Assembly (NCBI RefSeq): GCF_026151205.1
Contig: NC_087078.1
Location: 15,145,118-15,209,117 of the forward strand
Direction of reading: 5' to 3'
DNA: 64,000 nucleotides
Source: Bolinopsis microptera
Lineage: Eukaryota > Ctenophora > Tentaculata > Lobata > Bolinopsidae
Part shown: piece by piece, positions 11,862 to 16,720 of the stretch
Layout: each line of letters opens with the position of its first letter
Position numbering within the stretch: the first letter of the stretch is position 1
Translations under genes and position numbers: made by a program
The notes under the pieces: model-generated
Told to the model about the DNA's origin: nothing
Seen by the model: the letters and a program-made list of their open reading frames with translations, nothing else
Databases searched by the model: none

Positions 11862-12724
11862 TATTAACTGTGTATTAATAATTGTCATGGTACTTACTGA
11901 GAATACACATTTTAGATTAACTGTATTTGTTATTTGTAGATAAGTTTTTAAATAGATTTGAAATAAGCGTTAAAAATAATTTGGTGTATTTTTTTTCGAA
12001 ATTTCAATAAAATTGAGAAAAAATTCGAAAAATTCCATTTATTTCGAAAAATAAAGCCCCAATCGTTCTAGAACTATCATTCGCCTGCCATAATGTGGCC
12101 ATTGCGGTCATTTTGCACCCCCTATGGAGATCTCAAGACCTTCGGGAGCCGAATAAGCAATATTAGGGGTGGGGCGTATGGGTTCCTGGAGAAAAATGAC
12201 TATAAAAATTTTTGCCCAAAAGTTTCAGCTGGACGGTTTTTTTTTGTGGTTCCTGGGACTATGGACAACACATACCTGTAAACAAACCTTTGTTACGAAT
12301 TTGTTCACAGATTGACCCATAAACAGCAATTCTTGCCCTAACTATCTATATTAATAATCTTAAGTGTTAAGATCTTAAAGGTGCACACCGCGAATTTTGC
12401 AACTTTGGCTAAAATAGTAATAGGGCGTGAAACAGAAACATTGTGCTATGTTTCGCAGCGTGGGTCTAATTACATCACCCTCAAATTAGCGATCAAAGTT
12501 TTCGCTTCCTAGAGAGATGCAGCGTCTTAGGAAATCAAGGAATGTAAACAGTGTGAATTGTGGCTTAAACATTGCTAATTTTCTGAATTGTTTTGTGAAC
12601 TGCTGGTTTCCGATCTTATCGGCCAAAACAAAGGCTGTGTTTCTTCGATATTTTAATAGATGGAATTAATTTGTACACAAATTCTACGCGTTTTATGAGC
12701 AAAACTACCCTGACTGTCAAATCA

Positions 12725-13420
12725 TTACATATTATCCATTGAGTTACTAAATCCAACGTATTTTCCACTAGGATCGGGATATCGTTCCCGAATTTTGGCA
12801 ACAACACATTGCGGCAAAACCACTCGGTTTCCACGTCCAATAGGCTGTCCCCTGTTTACAAAAATTAGAAAGTTCCTGTAACACAGATGCCTACGCTTCC
12901 CATTGTCGAAAACTTGCTCAAGATATTTCTGTCTTGCTTCATGATCATTGATTATTGATGCAAATAGCATTCTGTTGTACTGCAATCCTTCTTCAGACAT
13001 GAGTTGAGCTTGAAAAAATGTTTGTTCCGTAATGCATCCTCCGGCAGACTCCATAAAATCTTGAACTTCCGGCTTGTCGTGACAGCATACTGCTTCTCTT
13101 GGCGGGCACGGTGAACACTGCCCACATGAACACCAGTCAGTTGAGCTGTTTACAATAGCCTCTCTCTGGGATACATCCAATCTCTCGGCATTTTTATCAG
13201 AGACACTTATAGGTTGATTTTGATCAGCTGCAATTTGACCACTTAAACCAGTTCTACTTCTATTATCCATACTGAATTCAGAAAAGTCTAACTCCCTCAT
13301 CTCATTATCATTTTCGCTATCTTCACTTGGAGAACTGTAAGGATGATCCTGAAAATCACAGATGGCAATTTCGTTGGTAGAAGATGGTTGATCTAGTTCA
13401 CCAGGAATCCCGTTGTACAT
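12725..13420 (-). CDS. P2X7 receptor C-terminal (ballast)-like domain protein
   Basis: 231 aa, open, downstream of the transposase on the same strand. Residues 1-95 are acidic and serine-rich with no recognised fold. Residues about 96-231 match the cytoplasmic tail of vertebrate P2X7 in order: W96-C97-S-C99-G-Q-C102 (P2X7 WCQCGSC), C112-C113, C129-I-T (P2X7 ACITTSELF), RHLCYRNF (P2X7 RHCAYR), VVLPQCVVAKIRERYP (P2X7 ILPSCCRWRIRKEFP) and SGKYVGF (P2X7 EGQYSGF). In P2X7 this domain binds zinc through these cysteines and also binds GDP. No channel or membrane segment is present here. Its job in the transposon is unknown; nucleic-acid or protein binding are both open. Confidence 0.82.
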   Translation of the reverse strand: MYNGIPGELDQPSSTNEIAICDFQDHPYSSPSEDSENDNEMRELDFSEFSMDNRSRTGLSGQIAADQNQPISVSDKNAERLDVSQREAIVNSSTDWCSCGQCSPCPPREAVCCHDKPEVQDFMESAGGCITEQTFFQAQLMSEEGLQYNRMLFASIINDHEARQKYLEQVFDNGKRRHLCYRNFLIFVNRGQPIGRGNRVVLPQCVVAKIRERYPDPSGKYVGFSNSMDNM

Positions 13421-13642
13421 ATTTGTGTGAAAATGAGGAGGCTAATAGATTCGTAGGAAATTTAGAAGGTTAATTTATCATGAAAAATAATATAGTAAAG
13501 TGAACAAGTGACACAATCGGTTTTTATAATCAGTATTAAACGTGGTGGACTGAAAACACTACACTGGCGATGAAATAAAAGTCAATCTACACAAGAGGTC
13601 ACTCTAACAAATAAAAAACTATTCAATTCAAAATCTAGAACG

Positions 13643-13912: not shown

Positions 13913-13947
13913 AGGTCACTCTAACAAATAAAACAAAACTATTCCAA

Positions 13948-16197
13948 TCAAAATCTAGATCGGTCAAGCAAAGTTGACTTTTTTGGAATTTTTAGTCCCG
14001 TGATATTCTTAGGAATTGTTCTTTTCACGTACTGACTTTCCTTGAGCATGGTGGCTATACTGCGGGGCTCTTTTCCCTCTCCAACATAGTCCCACATTCC
14101 TTGCAAGATATCTTTTCTGTAAGAGTAGTCCTTGTTGATGACTCTGCTTTTGCTTACATATTTCTTTTGGCTCTTAGAATAGGACCAAAATTCTTTTCTG
14201 TTGCTGGTTAAGTTCTTATTGATTTCTATAGCAATAACCATAGAGCCCACTACCATTCTGTTTAGGGAATAGGAAGTCCGTTTAGGCAAGAGCTTTAGTC
14301 TCACATTGTGATAAACTTCCAAAGCCCCTGTGTGTAGAAAGTTACAACACAACTGGATGGAACTTATGAAGCGGGTGCTGGTGAAGTACTTGAATAAAGA
14401 GGTGAATTCTTCACTTTCTATTTTAAACCACTTTAGCCCCTGTAGCGTCCTGTGTTTTACCCTTGAAGAGTGATCGCAGTGCTTCACTTTATGAAAGTAA
14501 GGATATAGCTTTTCAGAGGTCAAAACAATTTGCTTCTTTCTTTTTTCATTCCGTTCTTTCTGCAGTTGTAGTTTTAGAGGCTCGAAGGGATCGGCTGTCC
14601 AGGCGTGATGGTTACTAATGTGCAGTAAAGTCGAATGAACCCTTTCCACTAACTCTTTCGGGTCCCCTGCACATTTCTTACAGCTATACCAGAAATGATT
14701 GACGATAGGGGCAACAAACTCCGACAGCTTTGGTAGTTTTTTAGACATTTCCATGAGCTTTCTTTTCACCAGCCTCGCTTTGTGCCAAATATCATAGTTG
14801 TGAGTAATACTGGTAAAGAAGGTCCTCATCAGCTTTGCAATCCTCGTATTCTCATCGGTCACGAAGTGTCGGACTTTCAGCCCTTGGCTAACAAGGTTGA
14901 GTAGGACTTCCTTGCACGCAAACGTTTCCAGGTCGCCTCTGTACATCCCCTTTTGGGCGACGAAAAAGTCAAGAATAGCACCTGTCTTGATATCTAGAAT
15001 GCTATAAGTGCAAAACTTCGCACACCAACCGGGCGAGTCGAAGTGCCCATCTCCTGCGATGTCAACGTGTTCCAACTGACTGCGACTCTCTAGCAAAGCT
15101 GTCCTCATAGACGTCCATTGGTCGACGATTATAGGGTATAGATTGGTCGTGTTGTTTTTATAGAAACTTGAGCATGTTATGTATGGAACAGATAAACAAG
15201 TCATGAACGATTCTAAAACACTATAACTCATCCCACACAAAAAAGCTGCAGCAGAAACTACAAGGTTGCACTCATACTTTTTCTGTCTCAGGCGTGAGCT
15301 TCTCCAGACTCCTTCGTGAGGCAGAATACCATAACACCTGTAATTGACCACTATGCCAAATCCAGCACAGTTTATCCTCTTGATGACTGACCGGGCTCCG
15401 CATTCGGGACAGAATTTAAATAGGGATAGTAGTAAGGGCACGCTTATAATGGCCCAACAAGCGTTTGTTGTGAATGATTCTACGCTTTCATCAATAACTG
15501 GCTCATCATCGTCCGTGAGGTCATCCAGTTCAAGATCATCCAGCTCTATAAAGTCACCTTCTTCGGAAAATGAAGAGTTGATATCTTCATTATGTAAACC
15601 CGTGTCAAAGTCATCATCATCAACTTCATCAGTAGGTTGGCTATCTTCACTGTCAGTTTCTGAGAAGTAAAGCTCGTCGATCTCCCAAAAAGAATCAGGT
15701 TCAATGTTAGAACAGGATTCGTTGGTTGTATCCTGCTCAATATCTATGCCATCAGTTGACCCTGCCGGTTGCATTTCAACTAATCTTTCTTTAGGAGGTG
15801 GTCGTTTTGACATTGTTTGGACTAGGGGGTTGGCGAAACTACCAGTCCTTCGATCTGTATTTGGTACACTATCGACTTTCAAGCGAATCAATGTGCGAGT
15901 TTCAGGATTGGCTCGAGCATGATATCGTTCCAAATCACCCTCTTGAAAGTCATCCAGGAAAAAATGATCAGTACAAACTCTTGTACTAAGGCTGGGTTGC
16001 CATGATCGTGAATCTCTATTCATCCTCACAACCCATTTTTGCTTTAAAGCTTGATTTGTGGGTAGTCTGATGTATCTTAGAAATCCTCTTCCACTGTGAT
16101 CACTTACTTTGTTTCGGCTACTACGATTCGAGCAAGCACCCACAGCACAAAATGATCCTCCTGGTTTCCGTTTCTTCGAAGGTGGTTGTTCAGCCAT
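13948..16197 (-). CDS. Kolobok transposase with N-terminal THAP domain
   Basis: 749 aa in a single open frame. Residues about 15-80 form a C2CH THAP zinc finger (C17, C22, C75, H78) with P46, W55 and F79 at the usual places; this domain binds DNA and probably recognises the transposon ends. An acidic, serine-rich stretch follows at about 145-235, with CPECGARSVIKR near 265. The catalytic part has DGHFDSPGWCAKFCTYSILD at about residue 380 and HNYDIWHKAR at about 467, matching the Kolobok pattern DGR-DSPG-AK---Y and the later acidic motif. It ends in a basic tail (KIPKKSTLLDRSRF). No intron is needed. The role is cut-and-paste insertion at TTAA. Confidence 0.88.
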   Translation of the reverse strand: MAEQPPSKKRKPGGSFCAVGACSNRSSRNKVSDHSGRGFLRYIRLPTNQALKQKWVVRMNRDSRSWQPSLSTRVCTDHFFLDDFQEGDLERYHARANPETRTLIRLKVDSVPNTDRRTGSFANPLVQTMSKRPPPKERLVEMQPAGSTDGIDIEQDTTNESCSNIEPDSFWEIDELYFSETDSEDSQPTDEVDDDDFDTGLHNEDINSSFSEEGDFIELDDLELDDLTDDDEPVIDESVESFTTNACWAIISVPLLLSLFKFCPECGARSVIKRINCAGFGIVVNYRCYGILPHEGVWRSSRLRQKKYECNLVVSAAAFLCGMSYSVLESFMTCLSVPYITCSSFYKNNTTNLYPIIVDQWTSMRTALLESRSQLEHVDIAGDGHFDSPGWCAKFCTYSILDIKTGAILDFFVAQKGMYRGDLETFACKEVLLNLVSQGLKVRHFVTDENTRIAKLMRTFFTSITHNYDIWHKARLVKRKLMEMSKKLPKLSEFVAPIVNHFWYSCKKCAGDPKELVERVHSTLLHISNHHAWTADPFEPLKLQLQKERNEKRKKQIVLTSEKLYPYFHKVKHCDHSSRVKHRTLQGLKWFKIESEEFTSLFKYFTSTRFISSIQLCCNFLHTGALEVYHNVRLKLLPKRTSYSLNRMVVGSMVIAIEINKNLTSNRKEFWSYSKSQKKYVSKSRVINKDYSYRKDILQGMWDYVGEGKEPRSIATMLKESQYVKRTIPKNITGLKIPKKSTLLDRSRF

Positions 16198-16720
16198 TCA
16201 GCTACTTTATTTCTGTAACATCGTTCGAGTATTGAAGAATGTATTGAACAATGTGACTAAGAATACTAAAATAACTCGTGGTATTATAACTTGTAACTAG
16301 TGATAAGAGATGGCAAAGTTAAATAACTAATCGTGTTAACAATAACAAACTACTAGTGCTCAGTATTACCGGTTAAAACGAATGTGTCATGATTGCGTGT
16401 AAGAGACAAAACGTGGCATTGCAAATGTAAACAACGTAATAGTGAGAGGAGAGTAGAGAGAGAGTGATAGTACGCTGCATCTCTCGAGCGACCCTAATTT
16501 TGGTGGCCAATTAGAGGGCGACACCCTTACTTGCGTGTCCCTAAATTTTGCGGAAGTTAATATATTCGCTTGACTATCAGATTGAGTCAAAAAACAAAAA
16601 TGTTAAAAATTTTTCCCTATCTCGGTGTGCACCTTTAACAGTGTTAAGATCTTCATGATGTTGTTACACGAATTATGAATTAGGCATGCACTGGTTCATA
16701 GGATTAGGGTAATGATAATT

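Follow-up and report, generated by a model that had tools for sequence, protein, structure and literature searches.

A structurally complete, probably autonomous Kol0-type Kolobok transposon with a P2X7-ballast gene in Bolinopsis microptera

The Locus and the Ends of the Element

A stretch of 64,000 nucleotides of contig NC_087078.1 from the ctenophore Bolinopsis microptera (the window, numbered from its first base) contains at 12379–16634 a TTAA-flanked element of 4256 bp, excluding the target-site duplications. It carries two genes with open frames, both on the minus strand: one encodes a transposase of 749 amino acids (aa) with a THAP domain, and the other a predicted protein of 231 aa of the KolX type, which resembles the cytoplasmic ballast of the P2X7 receptor. 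The TTAA flanks, the inverted ends and both open genes had been described in an earlier sequence-only reading of this DNA, and all were recovered at these coordinates. The features are listed in Table 1.

The terminal inverted repeats are perfect over 12 bp, with the sequence AGGTGCACACCG, and the TTAA duplication is perfect as well. The termini AG...CT conform to the 5'-RR...YY-3' pattern of Kolobok elements. Published sections on the superfamily list TTAA duplications, 5'-RR and YY-3' ends and a C/DxxH motif, together with a zinc finger located between the second and third catalytic residues in all but Kolobok1 (Kojima & Bao 2022, PMC9587614, cited in part throughout). The TTAA duplication and AG...CT ends of the element fit this description. 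When the window was scanned for similar ends, with TTAA obligatory and up to 4 mismatches allowed per 16 bases, only the two ends of the element were found at 0 mismatches, together with one 4-mismatch site at 52411. Just outside both ends lies the same 14-base string, AGTGTTAAGATCTT (12363–12376 and 16640–16653), and since no other exact match to it occurs in the window, the element may have inserted into a short tandem repeat or a palindrome. Inside the ends, an imperfect subterminal inverted repeat has a score of 34; when both end stretches were shuffled by mononucleotides 1000 times, this score was never reached (shuffle maximum 27). This repeat is a candidate binding site.

Table 1. Features of the element, with positions in the window
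Feature	Position	Strand	Evidence
Left TTAA target-site duplication	12375–12378		blastn / end-pattern scan of window
Left 12-bp terminal inverted repeat, starts 5'-AG	12379–12390	+	self-comparison
Left arm, imperfect subterminal inverted repeat	12475–12525	+	38/51 alignment columns match, 14-bp perfect core
Segment B, end of the KolX gene (last codons plus 3' flank)	12676–12771	-	91/96 positions match 13817–13912
KolX-type gene, 231 aa, P2X7 ballast homologue; zinc cluster C97, C99, C102, C112, C113, C129, C205	12725–13420	-	open frame, Pfam, PDB alignment
Segment C', duplicate transposase 3' end with flank, located 5' of KolX	13590–13644	-	51 matches, 4 mismatches, 1 gap vs 13907–13964
Segment A', duplicate transposase 5' leader, located 5' of KolX	13643–13817	-	168 matches, 7 mismatches, 2 gaps vs 16215–16396
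Segment B', KolX 3'-end copy behind transposase	13817–13912	-	KolX residues 218–231, 12/14 identical
Segment C, transposase 3' end and flank	13907–13964	-	duplicated at 13590–13644
THAP/Mutator-like transposase, 749 aa	13948–16197	-	open frame, Pfam, motif scan
Segment A, transposase 5' leader	16215–16396	-	duplicated at 13643–13817
Right arm, subterminal inverted repeat	16472–16521	-	pairs with 12475–12525
Right 12-bp terminal inverted repeat	16623–16634	-	self-comparison
Right TTAA target-site duplication	16635–16638		end-pattern scan of window

The Transposase

The transposase matches two Pfam families, the Mutator-type family PF20700 (E = 5e-10) and THAP (PF05485, E = 1.1e-9), and the C2CH residues of the THAP domain are present as C17, C22, C75 and H78. 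Further along the protein the motifs follow in the order DSPG (387–390), TDEN (447–450), DIWH (469–472), CKKC (506–509) and GALE (624–627), with DSPG, TDEN and GALE at what we take to be the catalytic DDE positions. DIWH, located between TDEN and GALE, has the form of the DxxH signature of the Kolobok superfamily, and CKKC is a CxxC pair. A C2CH-type THAP domain is usual in the Kolobok superfamily, according to the part of PMC6004289 covered, and the order of motifs, as predicted from the sequence, fits a Kolobok DDE enzyme as described in PMC9587614. Ahead of the ATG at 16197, the AG at 16214–16213, immediately after segment A, gives a splice-acceptor-like ...TTACAG of putative function.

The KolX Protein and the P2X7 Ballast

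The frame of the second gene runs from stop to stop over 12725–13441 (238 aa), and the 231 aa are counted from the ATG at 13420; residue numbers below follow the 231-aa numbering. The sequence-only reading had proposed a match to the cytoplasmic tail of P2X7 from the motifs WCSCGQC, CIT, RHLCYR and LPQCVVAKIRERYP, which are indeed present, and the match was confirmed by profile search. P2RX7_C was the only Pfam-A family found at E up to 1, with E = 2.2e-17 and 64.1 bits against a cut-off of 23.5, over residues 74–231 of the 238-aa reading. In the PDB, four distinct P2X7 sequences were matched with E values between 1.6e-9 and 7.2e-6, followed by a match at E = 0.042. Two PDB alignments place all seven zinc cysteines of rat P2X7 (C477, C479, C482, C498, C499, C506 and C572) on C97, C99, C102, C112, C113, C129 and C205, respectively. 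Three of the five GDP contacts are likewise kept, with R546, H547 and R578 aligned to R177, H178 and R211, while R574 and K583 are replaced by V207 and D216. With P2RX7_C as the sole Pfam match, the scan gave no P2X channel domain in the protein, and a plain P2X receptor pseudogene was rejected for that reason. The predicted KolX is a zinc-cluster protein that stands on its own and is a homologue of the cytoplasmic P2X7 ballast.

Ballast proteins have been described from sponges, cnidarians, molluscs, arthropods, nematodes and deuterostomes (Rump et al. 2020, PMC7016195, cited in part throughout). Seven zinc cysteines define their motif, and five residues of the ballast contact GDP, namely R546, H547, R574, R578 and K583; for sea urchin and acorn worm the pattern of R546, H547 and R578 is reported, whereas outside the deuterostomes R546 and R578 alone are given (PMC7016195). 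KolX shares with the P2X7 ballast/ZCD proteins and NANOR (PMC7016195) the seven cysteines, the GGCIT and IRxxYP motifs and a C-terminal ballast on a short channel-free protein, and it differs from them in lying inside a transposon and in the two substituted GDP contacts. The same source gives an Ixodes gene model in which a domain printed "TAHP", read here as THAP, is joined with a ballast, and such a model would fit a transposon read as a single gene. It also reports that the ballast genes of invertebrates show conserved linkage to two markers across species, which suits resident genes better than mobile copies.

Duplication Between the Two Genes

The region between the two genes contains second copies of segments of the element itself, rather than foreign DNA. 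In the orientation of the genes, the order is A-transposase-C-B'-A'-C'-KolX-B, with overlaps at the joins of 6 bp (B'/C), 1 bp (A'/B') and 2 bp (A'/C'). The two copies of C are 317–320 bp apart, so that the structure differs from a simple element by one insertion of about 320 bp. The insertion, which probably arose through a template switch in the course of repair, copied the transposase leader to a position before KolX and the 3' end of KolX to a position behind the transposase. As a consequence both genes now have similar flanks, which may affect their expression.

The copies could also be the remains of a head-to-tail dimer, one unit of which lost KolX while the other lost the transposase, a proposal that concerns the rearrangement only. 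The order of segments does correspond to two units with complementary deletions, and the short overlaps between neighbouring copies are compatible with it. However, the terminal repeats have left no remnant at the B'/A' join (13817), and a third deletion is therefore needed. A dimer thus appears possible, with the odds somewhat against it, and a single insertion is preferred.

Selection on the Two Frames

The internal duplicates show 16 differences over 326 compared positions, plus 3 gaps, and this divergence was used as a clock for simulating neutral decay. Such a clock is valid for duplicates that originated in this lineage and fails if they were copied from a diverged sister copy. Under neutrality, the transposase frame survived without a stop with a probability of 0.07 and the KolX frame with one of 0.44. 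Inclusion of a frameshift term, for which a single 4-base gap is the only basis, changed these values to 0.004 and 0.15. With the clock set to its lower bound, survival was 0.23 for the transposase and 0.62 for KolX, or 0.21 and 0.60 with frameshifts. The simulated decay leans towards maintenance of the transposase and says little for KolX. The argument of the sequence-only reading that the two open frames point to selection on both genes is weak.

Classification and Comparison with Known Elements

The Kol0 lineage, with Kolobok-1_XT as its representative, encodes a transposase together with KolX, a protein with the P2X7 ballast fold that is similar to the region 476–595 of human P2X7; ballast proteins had not been linked to Kolobok earlier (Kojima & Bao 2022, PMC9587614). 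In a comparison of features, the element described here has in common with Kol0 the TTAA duplications, the RR/YY ends, the DxxH transposase and the P2X7-ballast second protein. It differs from Kol0 in the insertion of about 320 bp that duplicates the transposase leader and the 3' end of KolX, of which the sections of PMC9587614 covered here make no mention. Taken together, the element is very probably a structurally complete and likely autonomous Kol0-type Kolobok DNA transposon with KolX as a likely accessory factor.

KolobokP belongs to the same superfamily, and the size of the present element falls within the 4,022–4,748 bp of its autonomous families in oyster (PMC9587614). KolobokP has long terminal direct repeats and a His-Me finger nuclease on the other strand, whereas the second gene here is KolX, on the transposase strand. 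Assignment to KolobokP was rejected, since self-comparison gave no terminal direct repeats and the Pfam scan of the two proteins no nuclease family.

According to the same study, P2X7 originated when a P2X4-like gene was fused with KolX, and NANOR is likely a domesticated KolX (PMC9587614). The suggestion of the sequence-only reading that such an element could be the mobile source of the receptor tail is thus supported, although it is already published for Kol0. Because both the partnership of transposase and KolX and the P2X7 fusion are in print (PMC9587614), the element is classed as a new example of a published kind and not as a new kind. If the receptor tail descends from KolX, the use of KolX to the transposon matters, and a complete copy makes that question testable; an element with both frames open and its ends intact is material for asking what the P2X7 ballast did before it joined a receptor.

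Several observations weigh against this classification or narrow it. No second copy of the element was found in the window by blastn at E up to 1e-3, and tblastn of the window returned only a 14-residue KolX fragment at 13869–13910 (E = 0.004), with the other six matches at E = 3.1 to 9.8. Membership in Kol0 is provisional, being drawn from KolX and general motifs rather than from a transposase tree. The zinc finger expected downstream of DxxH is seen only as a CxxC pair, CKKC, in the expected interval. A PDB sequence search with the transposase gave 0 matches at E up to 0.1, and the single-sequence fold model of KolX, with a mean pLDDT of 34.5, was unusable.

Protein scans of other DNA gave no further relatives. 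None of 3 candidate stretches for KolX and none of 10 for the transposase were confirmed in viral contigs, and none of 12 candidates for KolX were confirmed in genome contigs. Both collections consist of viral and prokaryote sequence, so that this outcome is expected for an animal element and carries little information on animals.

Proposed Mechanism and the Role of KolX

THAP-domain binding of the ends and cut-and-paste transposition into TTAA are likely for a Kolobok transposase. In the mechanism proposed here, the transposase would bind the ends through its THAP domain at the 12-bp inverted repeats and perhaps at the subterminal inverted repeat, excise the element and insert it into TTAA with duplication of the 4 bases. 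KolX may act as an accessory factor of the transposase-end complex, in the assembly or the regulation of transposition, and such a role is considered the most likely one. The binding of KolX to DNA or to the ends, which the sequence-only reading gave as an example, is hypothetical.

KolX could instead be a passenger, a ballast gene without a role in transposition. Similar 5' and 3' segments are present at each of the two genes, as might be the case for separate cassettes, and the literature searches found KolX named in PMC9587614 only, with no functional test or other functional data. Yet the duplicated flanks copy the element's own segments, and the Kol0 lineage, with both transposase and KolX, has been described in vertebrates, annelids, cnidarians and sponges (PMC9587614), which suggests an old association; a mere passenger is improbable. 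Also unlikely is a dead copy in which both frames stayed intact by chance, neither gene having been under selection after the insertion. Such a copy would be consistent with the single copy found and with the neutral survival at the lower bound of the clock (0.21–0.23 for the transposase and 0.60–0.62 for KolX), but the perfect 12-bp ends, the perfect TTAA duplication and the retention of both full-length frames with their motifs speak against it.

A more specific proposal, and the most speculative of those considered here, is that KolX works with the transposase as a sensor of guanine nucleotides and would provide in trans a nucleotide check on the assembly of the ends, and that P2X7 inherited its site from the transposon. 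This suggestion is made because the zinc cluster and three residues of the GDP site are kept and because the P-element transposase, itself a THAP transposase, uses GTP as a cofactor, which it does through a domain of its own. If KolX does sense nucleotides, the duplication of the leader would keep both proteins expressed together.

Other Features of the Window

Retrotransposon-like frames lie on the plus strand at 6962–8437, with RNase H (PF00075, E = 1.4e-15), and at 19476–20576, with reverse transcriptase (PF00078, E = 6e-12). A run of five open frames that adjoin or overlap lies at 9195–11861, also on the plus strand; stops or changes of frame interrupt it, and it may represent a single decayed gene. 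Pfam searches with three of the five frames gave one match below the cut-off and none for the other two. An interstitial array of CTAACC (a rotation of the telomere repeat TTAGGG), with about 30 copies and 84% matches, occupies 18549–18735 and adjoins a 14–15-bp minisatellite. On the minus strand, an open frame at 914–1396 matches the N-terminal part of ornithine/arginine decarboxylases (PF02784, E = 3.8e-15) and is perhaps a host exon or a piece of a pseudogene, and a 235-aa open frame at 21517–22224 matches Vps62 (PF06101, E = 6.5e-10).

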